Source: an uncultured Holophagaceae bacterium (GTDB lineage: Bacteria > Acidobacteriota > Holophagae > Holophagales > Holophagaceae). From it: DNA of 64,000 nt. How positions within the stretch are numbered: the stretch's first letter is position 1; every line of letters starts with the position of its first letter. Positions 33,070-39,175 of the stretch are shown piece after piece. The stretch lies in NCBI GenBank assembly GCA_903884655.1, contig CAISFO010000033.1, positions 62,001 through 126,000 of the forward strand, in the 5' to 3' direction. The notes below the pieces were generated by a model, which worked only from the letters and a program-made list of their open reading frames with translations, made no database searches and was not told the origin of the DNA. A program made the position numbers and the translations under genes.

Positions 33070-34461
33070 TTGCATCTCAGTGGCCTTCAAGGTCACGGTG
33101 AGATGGGTATGTCCCTGCCAGTGGATGAATCAGACACGCGCTGCAATCACGACTGGTATGAAACGAGCGGAATGAACGACCAGGAAAGAGCGGCCAAAGC
33201 GTTGCGCAGCAGGGCGGAGTCGGCTGTCCTCAGCAGCCCCGCCAGAGCCCCCGACAGCGTCGATTCTCTCTTGCCTGTGGAGATGCTCCGGGTGCTGCAC
33301 GAGTTGCGGGTGCACCAGGTCGAATTGGAAATGGAGAATGAAGAGCTTCGCCAGACGCAACAGGAGATTGAAGCCTCACATGCACGCTACTTCCATCTCT
33401 ATGAGTTTGCGCCGGTAGGCTATTGCACCCTCAGCGAGCAGGGAGTCATCCTGCAGGCCAACCTCCACCTGAGATCCATGCTGGGCATGAGCCAGGAGAC
33501 GCTGCTCAGGCGGCCGCTCTCCCAGTTCATCCACCCCGAGGATGCAAACGAATATGAACTTTACCGCCGACTATTCTCCGACGCCGACCCCCTTCCTGCC
33601 ATGGTGCTGCGCTTGCTCTGCGCGTCAGCCCCTCCCATCTGGGCAAGTATAAAATCAGCTGCCGGGCAAGATTCAAAGGGCTCTTCGGAGCGCTTGATGG
33701 CGATCTCGGACATCACTGACCTCAAGCTGCACGAGGTGCGGCTCCAAAAATTCAATCTGGCGCTGGAAACCGAAGTCCTAGCCAGGATCAGCCAGCTCAA
33801 GCGGATGTACACGCGCCTGCTTCTGGCCCAGGAGAATGAGCGCAAGCGGATCGCCCTGGACCTGCATGACAGCCTCGGCCAGACCCTGAGCGCCATCAAG
33901 CTCATCGGAGGGCATAGGCTGGCATCCTTACACAGCCATCGGAGCCGTGCGGAGAAGGTATTCGCTTCCGCTTTGCTGAAAGACCTGGCTGGCGCCATCG
34001 AGGAGGTTCGACGCATTTCCATGAACCTGCGTCCCAGCATGCTGGATGACCTCGGCCTCCTGGCAACCATCACCTGGCTGATTGCCCACTTCAAGGCGGC
34101 CAATCCCTCCATCCATGTGACCGAACAGATCGAGCTCGAGGAAGAGGTGATCCCGGAGGTCCTGAAGATCACCCTCTTCCGGATCCTGCAGGAAGCCTCT
34201 CACAACATCGAGAAGCACAGCCAGGCAACGGGAGTCACCTTCACGCTCGCCCTGGTAGGTGGCCACCTCACCCTGTCCGTCTTTGACAACGGCCAAGGCT
34301 GCGATCCCAGGAGCGTCGGCCAGTCCAACTCGCATGGCGGACTGGGCCTGGCCTCGATGCAGGAGCGGACCGAGCTCAGTGGCGGAACATTTGAACTCAG
34401 GTCATCACCGGAAGGCGGTACCCTGGTTGTTGCGTGCTGGCACCTGCCGATTGAGACTTAG
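33070..34461 (+). CDS. PAS sensor histidine kinase (NarX/DesK-type HisKA_3); start could be internal (e.g. 33103 or 33172)
   Basis: ERKRIALDLHDSLGQTLSAIKLI, HGGLGLASMQER, GGTFELRSSPEGGT. Confidence 0.92.
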   Translation: MHLSGLQGHGEMGMSLPVDESDTRCNHDWYETSGMNDQERAAKALRSRAESAVLSSPARAPDSVDSLLPVEMLRVLHELRVHQVELEMENEELRQTQQEIEASHARYFHLYEFAPVGYCTLSEQGVILQANLHLRSMLGMSQETLLRRPLSQFIHPEDANEYELYRRLFSDADPLPAMVLRLLCASAPPIWASIKSAAGQDSKGSSERLMAISDITDLKLHEVRLQKFNLALETEVLARISQLKRMYTRLLLAQENERKRIALDLHDSLGQTLSAIKLIGGHRLASLHSHRSRAEKVFASALLKDLAGAIEEVRRISMNLRPSMLDDLGLLATITWLIAHFKAANPSIHVTEQIELEEEVIPEVLKITLFRILQEASHNIEKHSQATGVTFTLALVGGHLTLSVFDNGQGCDPRSVGQSNSHGGLGLASMQERTELSGGTFELRSSPEGGTLVVACWHLPIET

Positions 34462-35129
34462 CTCGTGACGAGGCCCTTCTCGATGGCGTAGGCAGTCAGG
34501 GCCGCGATGGAATGCAGGCCAAGGCGCTTCATCAGGTTTGAGCGGTGCTTCTCGATGGTCTTGGGGCCGAGGGAGAGGTAGGCCGCGATCTCACGGGTGT
34601 GCCAACCCTCAGCCACCAGCGCCAGCACCTCGCGTTCCCGAACAGAGAGGAGGTCGAAGACGGACTCACCCTGCGAGGACCCACCCCCAGACGCACCCTC
34701 AAGAAAGGCGGTGAGGACTTGGGTGGTGATGACTGGGCTGAGGAAACGCTTACCGTCCATCACTGTTTTCAATGCGGTCAACAGCTCTACGGAACCACAA
34801 TCCTTCAGACAATATCCGTTGGCCCCTGCCTTGAGCGCCGCAAAGACGTGCGCCTCATCCTTGTGGGCCGTCAGGACTAGGACCCGAGTCTGCCCGCTGA
34901 CCCGCTTGATCTCCTTGATCACCTCGATGCCGTTGGTACCCGGCATGGACAGATCCAGCAGCACAATGTCGGGCTGGAACTTGTCGGCGCACCGAATGGC
35001 CTCTTGGCCTTCTCCGGCCTCCCCGACCACCATGAAACCAGGATATGACCCCAAGAGCAGGCGCAGGCCATCCCGCATGATGGCGTGGTCTTCGACGATG
35101 ACCACGCGGTATCTCGTCTTTGTTACCAT
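34458..35129 (-). CDS. NarL/FixJ (LuxR HTH) response regulator
   Basis: REC DIVLLDLSMPGTNG; LSVREREVLALVAEGWHTREIAAYLSLGPKTIEKHRSNLMKRLG. Confidence 0.95.
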   Translation of the reverse strand: MVTKTRYRVVIVEDHAIMRDGLRLLLGSYPGFMVVGEAGEGQEAIRCADKFQPDIVLLDLSMPGTNGIEVIKEIKRVSGQTRVLVLTAHKDEAHVFAALKAGANGYCLKDCGSVELLTALKTVMDGKRFLSPVITTQVLTAFLEGASGGGSSQGESVFDLLSVREREVLALVAEGWHTREIAAYLSLGPKTIEKHRSNLMKRLGLHSIAALTAYAIEKGLVTS

Positions 35130-35387
35130 CCTGCCCGCCTCTCTCCCCGCATCGGGGGCCTGGAAGAAGGTAACGCGATCGTCGTGCTCCCTCCGGACTT
35201 CCTGGTCTGGGAATCCTACTCTCGCCCGGAAAGCCCTCTCCGGCCGCCGGGTCAGATAAATCAAGCGCAGGACTCACGGCGAGAAGGTCTCCCTTGGTGA
35301 GAAGGAAACGAGTCCCTGCGGCCACAGTCTGATGCGAGACAGGACCCAGCAAGGTTTAGAGATACGGCGGTAAGGTATTTGTCACTA

Positions 35388-35395
35388 ATTCCTGA
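35388..35395. repeat. Target-site duplication, left (ATTCCTGA)
   Basis: Identical 8-mer at 39168-39175 immediately outside the TIRs. Confidence 0.95.
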
Positions 35396-35529
35396 CCTGA
35401 TTATCGGCGACCCTCAGCCTGAAAGCCAGGTATCGACACCTCGGAAAGCGTAGGCGAAGCCTCAAGTTTCTCCGTATGAGACATGAAATGTCCATCACTG
35501 GAACCGATGTTTTCAGTGGAGAACGCGAC

Positions 35530-36486
35530 ATGCCGAGGTACGACATCCAATTTCAAAAGGGCCTCTCCCTCCGGGAGTTCATGGCCCGCTTCGGAACCGA
35601 GGAGCAGTGCATCGAGGCCACCTGCATGGCCCGCTGGCCCAAGGGCTTCGAGTGTCCTGAATGCGGGTCCACCCGGCATTGCCGCCTATCCCGTGGTCTG
35701 TTCCAGTGCCAGGACTGCCGGAAGCAGACCAGCCCGACCGCAGGGACCATCTTCCAGGGCACGAAGCTCCCCCTCACGGTCTGGTTCCAGGCCATGCACC
35801 TGCTCACCCAGGGCAAGCACTCGGTCTCGGCCTTGGAACTGAAGCGCCAGCTTGGGGTCCACTACGAGACGGCCTGGGCCATGAAGCAGAAGATCATGCA
35901 GGTGATGTTGGAACGGGAGGCCCGGACGGTCCTCTCGGGCCGGATCGAAGTGGACGACGCCTATGTGGGCGGTGAACGCCACCTGGGAAAGCGGGGCCGG
36001 GGCGCCGCTGGGAAGACCCCCTTCGTCGTGGCCGTCCAGACCGACCCAAAGAACCCTGCCGTGGTCCTCCACATGAGGATGAAGGTGCTCCGGAATGTCA
36101 GCGGGCGGGAACTGAAGCCCTGGTTTGCCAAGGGCTTTGCCCCGGCCTCGACCATCCTCACGGATGGCTGGCAAGCCTACAACTTCCTGTCCGAGGCTGG
36201 ATTCGAGCACGAACCACACAAGATGCCGGGCGGGTGGCGGAGCGGGCGGCACCCCTCCTTCCCCTGGGTGAACACCGTCCTGGGGAACTTGAAGGGGAAC
36301 ATCGTGGGCGTGACCCGTTGGGTTGGGAAGGCCCACCTGGACCGCTACCTGGCGGAGTTCCAGTACCGCTTCAACCGGCGCTTCGACCTGAAGTCCATGC
36401 TTTCCCGCCTGCTGTCGGTGGCCGTCCGGACTCCGGCTATGCCCCAGCCCCTCCTTAAACTCGCCTGGATGGGGCAAGCGGCCTAA
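35530..36486 (+). CDS. IS1595-family transposase
   Basis: N-terminal zinc ribbon CPECGSTRHCRLSRGLFQCQDC; IEVDDAYVGGERH; ILTDGWQAYNFL catalytic motifs. Confidence 0.95.
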   Translation: MPRYDIQFQKGLSLREFMARFGTEEQCIEATCMARWPKGFECPECGSTRHCRLSRGLFQCQDCRKQTSPTAGTIFQGTKLPLTVWFQAMHLLTQGKHSVSALELKRQLGVHYETAWAMKQKIMQVMLEREARTVLSGRIEVDDAYVGGERHLGKRGRGAAGKTPFVVAVQTDPKNPAVVLHMRMKVLRNVSGRELKPWFAKGFAPASTILTDGWQAYNFLSEAGFEHEPHKMPGGWRSGRHPSFPWVNTVLGNLKGNIVGVTRWVGKAHLDRYLAEFQYRFNRRFDLKSMLSRLLSVAVRTPAMPQPLLKLAWMGQAA

Positions 36487-36498
36487 CTAGTGGTCGAA

Positions 36499-38895
36499 TC
36501 AGCGAAGGAACCCGAGCGAATAGACCTGAGGGAGCAGCTTCTCGCCCAAGGCGTCATACGCGGATTTGAAGGGTGTAAAATCCACCGGTTCATTCTCGTT
36601 GTTGGCCTCCAGGGCTTTGCGGATCTGGTACCACCCAACATCAGGGCGGTTGAGCTTGAATTCGTCGCGGATCTTCTTTTCAAAGGTCGTGGCGTGGTAA
36701 TTCTTCCAGAGTTTTCGGCCTTCATCCAAAACACGCTTCGCTTCGGTGGAGAGCTTCTGCTTGGCGAGATACGAACTCATGAAGGCAGACTCGAAACGTC
36801 CGCTTGAGCCGACTTCCTTCTCAGTGAAGGGAATGAAGTGGTTCACGAGCGACCAGGATTTGCCGTTCCATTGGATGGACTTGGCGCCAGCGGATAGGTT
36901 CTTCCCGGCGAAAAGCATGTAAACGAGGCAGTCGGATTTGAATTCTTCGGGGAGCGGCTGCGAAGGCTGAAGAAACTGGTCATTGTGGTTGAGCCAGGTA
37001 TGGGGGACGACCATGCGGACAGTGAAGACGATGGCGGCCTGCCAGAGGTTGGATTGGGTGACGAAGAATGCGCCAGCACTGCCAAATCCGGATGAGAATA
37101 GTGCGGTCAGAGTACCGGCATTTTGAAGCATGTTGCTGTTGACCAACATGCTCCCGATTGCGCCGTCGGCCCACCTATCTCCGCGCAAATCCTTCGTGAC
37201 GGTTGCAGGCGTGATCGCATTCTTGAGCGGAATAGCTTCCTGCTTGTTTGACCGTGGACGAATTATCCATTCACTCAGCGGCGGTTGGTCGGCAGTCCGG
37301 TAGAACCTCTTCTCACCGATCTTGTTTCCATCCTTGTCCAGAGCCACAGTAAGGATTTCATCGGACGGCTTATGTTTGCTCATATCCCACAGGAGAAATC
37401 CGATTGGGAAATTTCCCTTGAGGCCATCGAATGCCTTGCTGTGGACTACGAACCCGTCTAAATACTTGGCTTTCCATTGTGCGCGGAATTCCTCAAAATT
37501 TGGCGCGTTGACATACTTTGGCGTCCCGAACATCGCAACCGTGGCATTCGGAAGTTCCTTGGAAATGCGTGTTAGGAATTGAACGAAAAGTTCTCGTGCG
37601 GCATAACCTAAACCATTCATGCTTGCCGCAATTTTTGTTGTAGCCACATCGGCCTTATGCTCTCCAGTCCCAGAAATCGTGTCCGCATTTCCCGCCTCTC
37701 CATACGGCGGATTGATCAGCACCAAAATCTTCTTCGCACCCTTCTTCTTTTCCCTCGCGTCCTTGATGGCTTGGCGCAATTCCTCCGGCACCTTCTCTGT
37801 CAGGGAGTAGTCAATCTCCCCGGACCCCCCAACATCATCGTTGAGATAGTCGTACTGGAACTTCGTCGCTGCCACGCAGGTATGGCTGGCTCCCATCACA
37901 TCAATGTCCGCCTTATCCAGCGTGCTCATGAAGATATTGCGGTGGTTGCTGTGCTTGACCTCCAGATTCCCCACACCGCAGCACATATCCCACACGATGT
38001 AGTTTTTCTGCCAGTTCTTCCCAAGAGTCTGAGCCAGCAGGTCATAGGCCTTGTCTACGATATGCAAGGGCGTGTAGTACGCGCCCTTGAAGCTCCGTTC
38101 GTCCAGCGGCAATAGGCTGTCGCGGCGCTCCAGCAGATAATGGCGGTGTTCCTCTTCTGGTGGACGGTGGTAGATCGCCCAGAACCTGCGGTATCCCCGG
38201 TCGCTTGAAAGCGCGTATGTCGTTCCGTTGAGCAGGAACACGGGTTTGCCGTCATCCTGAAGTAGCCGTGCCGGAAGATCCTTGATGGCGGCATTCTTGC
38301 CGTCGTGCATGATGTCGGCGAAGAATAGGAGCGCGTAGTCGATGGGGTCCACGCCCTCCAATTCTGTGCCGATCATTTTCACCCAATTGTCGAACACCTG
38401 TTTCAAGTTGTCAGGCGTGATGGGCGTTCGGATGAACTTGCCTTCCGCGATGGCGGTCTTGACGGCCTGGATGAACTCCTTTTCGTGGGTCTTGATGTCG
38501 TAGACAACAAAATGCGCTTCGATGCGTGGCGCAACTTGCGCTATTGATTCCTTGGTCGGCTGCGAAGGGATTTTGCTCCATTTGATGGTCTTATCCTCGA
38601 CGACCGGCATGACCTTGACCGTCTCCATAAGCGCAGCCTTCTCTCGGTCGATCACGGCTAGGAACGGCGGGATGTGCTTTCCCTTCAGCCGCGCATGACG
38701 GACATAGGCGATCAACTGCGTGAACATTTTGTGGACGGTATCCGAGCCACTCTTCGCCTCGAACCAGATTTCCTTGGTTCGGATGTCAATATCCTCGAAA
38801 CCCTGTGAGTGATTCTTCAGCCCAAGAGCTTTGATATAGAGGCCCTTCACATCCTCTTCGGTATGCGCCTTCTGCAACTCAGCATAGAGGGTCAC
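36499..38895 (-). CDS. Type IIG-like N6-adenine DNA methyltransferase with N-terminal nuclease-like domain (transposon passenger)
   Basis: VWDMCCGVGNLE (motif I), LVLINPPYGEAG (NPPY motif IV), N-terminal DIDIRTKEIWFEAKSG (PD-(D/E)xK-like). Confidence 0.85.
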   Translation of the reverse strand: MTLYAELQKAHTEEDVKGLYIKALGLKNHSQGFEDIDIRTKEIWFEAKSGSDTVHKMFTQLIAYVRHARLKGKHIPPFLAVIDREKAALMETVKVMPVVEDKTIKWSKIPSQPTKESIAQVAPRIEAHFVVYDIKTHEKEFIQAVKTAIAEGKFIRTPITPDNLKQVFDNWVKMIGTELEGVDPIDYALLFFADIMHDGKNAAIKDLPARLLQDDGKPVFLLNGTTYALSSDRGYRRFWAIYHRPPEEEHRHYLLERRDSLLPLDERSFKGAYYTPLHIVDKAYDLLAQTLGKNWQKNYIVWDMCCGVGNLEVKHSNHRNIFMSTLDKADIDVMGASHTCVAATKFQYDYLNDDVGGSGEIDYSLTEKVPEELRQAIKDAREKKKGAKKILVLINPPYGEAGNADTISGTGEHKADVATTKIAASMNGLGYAARELFVQFLTRISKELPNATVAMFGTPKYVNAPNFEEFRAQWKAKYLDGFVVHSKAFDGLKGNFPIGFLLWDMSKHKPSDEILTVALDKDGNKIGEKRFYRTADQPPLSEWIIRPRSNKQEAIPLKNAITPATVTKDLRGDRWADGAIGSMLVNSNMLQNAGTLTALFSSGFGSAGAFFVTQSNLWQAAIVFTVRMVVPHTWLNHNDQFLQPSQPLPEEFKSDCLVYMLFAGKNLSAGAKSIQWNGKSWSLVNHFIPFTEKEVGSSGRFESAFMSSYLAKQKLSTEAKRVLDEGRKLWKNYHATTFEKKIRDEFKLNRPDVGWYQIRKALEANNENEPVDFTPFKSAYDALGEKLLPQVYSLGFLR

Positions 38896-39098
38896 TTTCG
38901 CCGCCTTTCCGTCTCGGTCTTTCCAGGGTTACGGTCGGCCAGGTAACCAGCCACGGCTTCTCTCACCACGCTTCCAATGGAAATTCGACGCTCAAAGGCG
39001 ATTTCCGCCAGTGCGTCGTAAATCTGCCGCTCAAGGCTCACGGTTGTCCTGACCTCCAGCAGAGGTCTCCGTTTCGTCTTGGGTGGGGTGCGTGGCAT
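38892..39098 (-). CDS. Ribbon-helix-helix/CopG-like small DNA-binding protein (transposon passenger)
   Basis: RTTVSLERQIYDALAEIAFERRISIGSVVREAVAGYLADR. Confidence 0.8.
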   Translation of the reverse strand: MPRTPPKTKRRPLLEVRTTVSLERQIYDALAEIAFERRISIGSVVREAVAGYLADRNPGKTETERRRK

Positions 39099-39167
39099 GG
39101 TTTCGTCCTCTGCATCAGTCTACACCAAAGTGATGCAGTTTTAAGCTGAGACTCGCCGATAATCAGG

Positions 39168-39175
39168 ATTCCTGA
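39168..39175. repeat. Target-site duplication, right (ATTCCTGA)
   Basis: Matches 35388-35395. Confidence 0.95.

Follow-up and report, generated by a model that had tools for sequence, protein, structure and literature searches.

Structure and insertion site of the element

The window, a stretch of 64,000 nucleotides from the genome of an uncultured Holophagaceae bacterium (G000), contains a transposon at positions 35396-39167, the boundaries of which could be placed to the exact base by reading the sequence. Between its ends lie the gene of an IS1595-family transposase (35476..36486, plus strand; 336 aa), the gene of a type IIG-like restriction-modification (R-M) protein (36499..38895, minus strand; 798 aa) and the gene of an RHH (CopG/Arc-like) DNA-binding protein (38892..39098, minus strand; 68 aa). 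The left terminal inverted repeat (TIR; 35396..35424, plus strand) pairs with the right one (39139..39167, minus strand), both carrying CCTGATTATCGGCGA; the two agree fully over 15 bp and differ at 4 positions in 29 bp. The element is flanked by the 8-bp target-site duplication (TSD) ATTCCTGA on the left (35388..35395) and on the right (39168..39175). By a rough count, a 15-bp TIR together with an 8-bp TSD would be expected by coincidence about 5e-6 times per 64-kb window. In G003, a genome of the same genus, the locus is empty and has a single ATTCCTGA, and the joined flanks align continuously over 2,440 bp (99.6% identity, 10 mismatches). Because G003 keeps this empty site, the insertion can be regarded as real and recent; entry of the element postdates the split of the host and G003 lineages, precise loss of the element in G003 being the less likely course of events. 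The insertion is located upstream of the genes for a LuxR-type response regulator and its sensor kinase (34458-35264), which it may have separated from their upstream regulatory DNA.

The transposase gene is an intact open reading frame (ORF), and its product has an N-terminal zinc ribbon and a DDE-type domain (DDE_Tnp_IS1595), with HMM matches to NF033547 (4e-60; 203 bits at a cut-off of 75), PF12762 (1.2e-31) and PF12760 (8.4e-14). It shows what we take to be a DDNK/ER4R7-like pattern, which bears on the placement within the family (IS1595/ISSod11-like subgroup). The 8-bp length of the TSD, typical of IS1595, is seen here, in sister elements and at the empty site. The nearest transposases outside the genus share 48-52% amino acid identity (ISKpn3 is the nearest named relative), and no related transposase was found at E<1e-60 beyond this genus elsewhere in the phylum (297 genomes). 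With passenger genes that are unrelated to transposition inside its terminal repeats, the element is an IS1595-family transposon of the tIS type, and the TSDs and the empty site suggest that it was inserted by its encoded transposase acting at the shared ends. The initial annotation had described an intact IS1595-family transposon with perfect 15-bp termini (29 bp with 4 mismatches) and a perfect 8-bp TSD, and it is borne out by the ends, the empty site and the profile matches; its remark that passengers occur in some IS1595 elements agrees with the literature, where such elements are known as tIS (PMC5704250).

The predicted restriction-modification protein and its RHH partner

The passenger gene has a GC content of 53.7%, compared to 63.8% in the transposase gene and 63.4% in the window, and so is AT-richer than its surroundings, as had been noted before. 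It is present once in G000 and absent from 59 relatives. In an alignment of 69 members from several phyla, the predicted nuclease domain of the protein (residues 1-~150) contains the invariant residues D37, E42, E46-A-K48, Q60 and Y64 (Q60xxxY64), and the methyltransferase domain (~265-500) the invariant motifs YTP274-276, WDMCCGVGNL302-311 and NPPY395-398. The combination of D...E-A-K with QxxxY reads as a PD-(D/E)xK site accompanied by a QxxxY motif of the RecB-like type, and YTP, DMCCGVGNL and NPPY are the motifs X, I and IV of gamma-class N6-adenine methyltransferases, a class to which the protein also belongs by its fold matches (M.TaqI, CamA, MmeI). According to the variability profile the most variable stretch, a short loop after NPPY aside, comprises residues 501-625, which probably represent the target-recognition region (~500-625).

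Library HMMs recognised only a weak methyltransferase in the passenger (TIGR02987, 4e-6; PADLOC MTase_II, 4e-6), the nuclease domain was named by no HMM library searched, and a PDB sequence search with both the single sequence and a profile revealed no detectable similarity to any solved chain. The closest folds to the full-length model (pLDDT 84) were DrdV (3.8e-8), BpuSI and MmeI, followed by BrxX, EcoKI M, CamA and M.TaqI, at low TM-scores (0.2-0.3); for a separate model of the nuclease domain (pLDDT 91), DrdV was again the top match, but a weak one (E 0.04, TM 0.3).

Relatives of the passenger are encoded at 147 loci of the genome collection, and the analysis retained the best 80, which are mostly full-length and 55-70% identical; among these 80, the hosts are Bacteroidota, Beta- and Gammaproteobacteria, and others. 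Seven further relatives are located on viral contigs, and a protein-level search of the phage collection found none. Plasmids of 10-16 kb carry relatives as lone genes annotated as hypothetical protein. Distant relatives are found on the mobilisable plasmids pUM157 of H. pylori and pMP118 of L. salivarius, in both cases with a Fic family gene within a few kb. At the best 80 of the 147 loci the family has no conserved neighbour, and at none of the 80 was it adjoined by an IS1595 transposase; a separate R, M or S gene thus seems not to be required. Because the motifs of nuclease and methyltransferase are invariant within one ORF, a variable region follows them, the closest folds are of this type and no neighbour is conserved, the data support a type IIG-like R-M enzyme that consists of one polypeptide and stands alone, and which would be expected both to methylate and to cleave DNA. 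Such an enzyme had been proposed in the initial annotation on the basis of methyltransferase motifs I and NPPY and a PD-(D/E)xK-like N-terminus, and the proposal is now well supported.

The RHH protein matches PF13467 (8e-6) and PF01402 (4e-5), both above the cut-offs. Its gene is the leading one of the operon, and 4 nt (GTGA) are shared by its stop and the start of the passenger, in agreement with the overlap described earlier, which suggests translational coupling of the two genes. A possible operator (39110..39138, minus strand) lies in the interval that separates the RHH start codon from the right end. It consists of the perfect inverted repeat CTGCATCA-N13-TGATGCAG, and an 8-bp perfect inverted repeat with a 13-bp spacer was equalled in about 0.5% of shuffles and in 1.2% of random window segments of the same length. 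A sigma-70 promoter scan placed its sole promoter-like site inside the passenger and none at the RHH start; TTAAAA-N16-TAGACT, read by hand before the RHH gene, is only suggestive. No RHH gene was found beside the passenger relatives (0 of 80 loci, best of 147), no conserved upstream partner of any kind was found in the R-M family, and the RHH search of the plasmid collection gave no match. As judged from these gene neighbourhoods, the RHH protein is not part of the R-M family. Rather than an antitoxin, it is probably an autoregulator of local effect that presumably represses its own operon and was acquired together with the enzyme gene or earlier. The earlier idea of an RHH control protein is plausible in view of the coupled start and the inverted repeat in the promoter region, although the protein does not belong to the R-M family as such.

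Sister elements with a common chassis and different cargo

Other copies with the same TIRs, the search for which had been suggested, were found both in the same genome and across the genus: the 15-bp end has many occurrences in G000, and the 24-bp end pattern is present in 28 of the 47 genomes of the genus. At least ten elements of the genus have these ends in common, and those with a complete transposase share it as well (65-90% DNA identity). Six further elements were counted as closed, i.e., with 8-bp duplications or complete ends (G000:C20, TSD AAAATGGT; G000:C38, TATCTTTA; G014:C260, TTCCGTTA; G030:C161, TAAACAAG; G003:C114, AAAAGCTT, with small ORFs as cargo; and G003:C44, TAGTTCTT, without cargo). 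Four more are complete without a matching TSD or are cut at a contig end (G014:C146, G002:C2, G003:C248, and G016:C132, which has no cargo), and G000:C97 shows the cargo-side end only. Oriented by the transposase, the sister elements can be aligned from position 1 as far as the transposase stop at ~1090, and the alignment resumes for the final ~25-28 bp; the cargo between the aligned parts is unrelated, except in the DinD and Bro-N elements, which have ~400 bp in common beside the end. Eight of the elements carry unrelated cargo in one and the same place, which extends from the stop of the transposase gene to the opposite end. Since cargo-less relatives end 5-17 bp past the transposase stop, we regard the gap between this stop codon and the distal end as the cargo slot. 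A remnant of the original right end beside the transposase stop, as would be left by capture via a farther end, was sought in the cargo elements and gave no convincing match.

Besides the RHH and R-M operon of the window element, the slot contains DinD (NF008573, 1.9e-114), a second Bro-N protein, RhuM (PF13310, 5.6e-109), a Fic protein with DUF4172, an NTP_transf_8 protein, a protein of 264 aa that has no HMM match but shows a nucleotidyltransferase-like GGLAVGVHG motif, a two-gene HTH pair resembling toxin-antitoxin (TA) systems, and a 147-aa protein of no known kind. DinD, Bro-N, RhuM and Fic matched candidate or known PADLOC defence models at 1e-36 to 1e-153 (the “PDC” families among these models being candidate defence families only), and three cargo types had no defence match; as a baseline, ten ordinary genes of the window gave one strong match, to a regulator. 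The enrichment of defence-type cargo is an estimate from about ten elements. The DinD-, Bro-N- and Fic-type cargo proteins have a common low-complexity N-terminal leader (TAASVSMDVGGPVGADEPTGLAEDF-like), a pattern that resembles domain exchange behind a common leader; the leaders of the remaining cargo proteins are also of this kind but unrelated to it.

In G000, four or more contigs (among them C76, C78, C89 and C35) terminate within one cargo-side end that is 87% identical to that of the HTH-pair element G003:C248; therefore the HTH-pair type is multi-copy in the genome of the window, where, to judge from these contig ends, it is probably active. Three other contig ends of G000 (C5, C8 and C80) lie within a further multi-copy element, ~138 bp in from its transposase-side end, and the cargo of this element is unassembled. 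Five genomes (G008, G060, G022, G026 and G035) contain many paired ends of the same type ~250-430 bp apart, which are MITE-like (non-autonomous derivatives) and are numerous where a full-length transposase was not found.

A proposed carrier of exchangeable genes and its relation to known systems

The element is best explained as a tIS with a cargo slot, occupied here by an RHH autoregulator and a type IIG-like enzyme, the chassis of which spreads exchangeable genes for defence or competition (probability about 0.8). The transposase would act on the CCTGATTATCGGCGA ends and generate the 8-bp target duplications; the slot, bounded by the stop codon of the transposase gene and the distal end, holds a two-gene operon, RHH followed by the enzyme. 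The latter is predicted to methylate the adenine of its own site in the host DNA and to cut unmodified incoming DNA, which might benefit the host or the element. The same transposase-plus-ends chassis appears in the sister elements with other, mostly defence-associated or TA-like cargo, which is why we consider it a small vehicle for exchangeable genes. Two routes of cargo exchange are possible, namely recombination in the conserved parts (transposase and end) and the use of a more distant copy of the end. A stronger version, in which this IS1595 lineage is a dedicated 2-4 kb defence carrier with a fixed slot and a specific capture mechanism that has repeatedly exchanged anti-phage or TA cassettes within the genus, is tentative and, in our opinion, rather doubtful.

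Two other explanations concern the function of the passenger. It might be an orphan methyltransferase that methylates without cleaving and provides an epigenetic or self-protection mark; the presence of CamA and BrxX among the fold matches and the failure of all HMMs to recognise the nuclease are in line with this, but the invariance of the nuclease residues across the 69 sequences is hard to explain without catalytic use, and the strand and helix order of the nuclease-domain model appears to fit a PD-(D/E)xK core, so that we consider such a function unlikely. The initial annotation had proposed a transposon-stabilising addiction module, in which loss of the element would allow residual nuclease to kill the cell. 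The operon-like arrangement, in which a small DNA-binding protein comes first and the starts are coupled, could be read in this way, some sister elements hold a TA-like small-gene pair (at least four copies in the genome of the window), and TA pairs belong to the transposition module in Tn3-family transposons (PMC7157771). According to PMC12707154 (citing Kozlova 2024), however, post-segregational killing requires long-lasting nuclease activity. An addiction module combines a stable toxin with an unstable, separable antidote, and here both predicted activities reside in one polypeptide; the fused nuclease and methylase would be diluted together after loss, and because the fused enzyme cannot leave the nuclease behind without the methylase, the addiction reading is weak. 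In addition, the sister cargo is mixed and only in part TA-like, with DinD, RhuM, Bro-N and nucleotidyltransferase genes that are not obviously addictive. The proposal is thus unsupported and addiction quite improbable; an R-M system carried for defence or competition is the more convincing interpretation.

That the passenger is hitch-hiking DNA captured once by chance, with no cargo slot, might be thought from the window alone, in which a single cargo is visible, and from an R-M family that is otherwise unlinked to IS1595. This is very improbable: nine same-end sister elements, complete or one-ended, with different cargo at one position already contradict it, as do the cargo-less relatives that stop directly beyond the transposase.

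Islands, prophages, plasmids and large transposons are known carriers of anti-phage genes. An element of 4 kb that has a single transposase and a complete one-gene R-M system, inserts with an 8-bp target duplication, and has siblings with DinD, RhuM, Fic or TA-like genes in the same slot would rank among the smallest vehicles of such genes. Since the cargo changes as one block, with a precise border on each side, the nucleotidyltransferase-like and the 147-aa cargo can be nominated as defence candidates. These elements make the acquisition of passengers by insertion sequences testable by comparison and experiment.

Among known systems, the IS1595-family tIS tISCpe8 and MTnSag1/tISSag10 (PMC5704250) are similar in having an IS1595 DDE transposase, ends of ~25 bp and an internal passenger gene. 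Their cargo consists of lincomycin resistance and mobilisation functions, whereas the window element has an R-M operon and no mobilisation gene, and its chassis, unlike theirs, is combined with numerous unrelated cargoes within one genus. The simple ISKpn3-like IS1595 elements (on plasmids of Marinobacter, Acidiphilium and Allochromatium) have TIRs that start with CCTGATTA or CCTGCTTA and, in contrast to the window element, are ~1.05 kb long and cargo-free, with ends immediately around the transposase. According to the fold search, the passenger resembles DrdV, BpuSI and MmeI (IIL) in that a single polypeptide combines a candidate PD-(D/E)xK nuclease at the N-terminus, a gamma N6-adenine methyltransferase and a probable recognition region towards the C-terminus, although it has no detectable sequence similarity to solved chains and its overall TM-score is low. 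Tn3-family transposons, which exchange TA modules (PMC7157771), likewise have exchangeable small modules adjoining the transposition genes; here the transposase is of another family, the cargo is broader than TA and the slot is downstream of the transposase. A literature search beyond the founding IS1595 paper (Siguier 2009) and its passenger list found no publication on IS1595 elements with R-M or exchangeable defence cargo. A swappable cassette slot, mostly filled with defence- or TA-like genes, on a genus-restricted chassis and with R-M among its cargo appears to be new, and the slot with its swapped cargo is a more important novelty than the R-M cargo itself.
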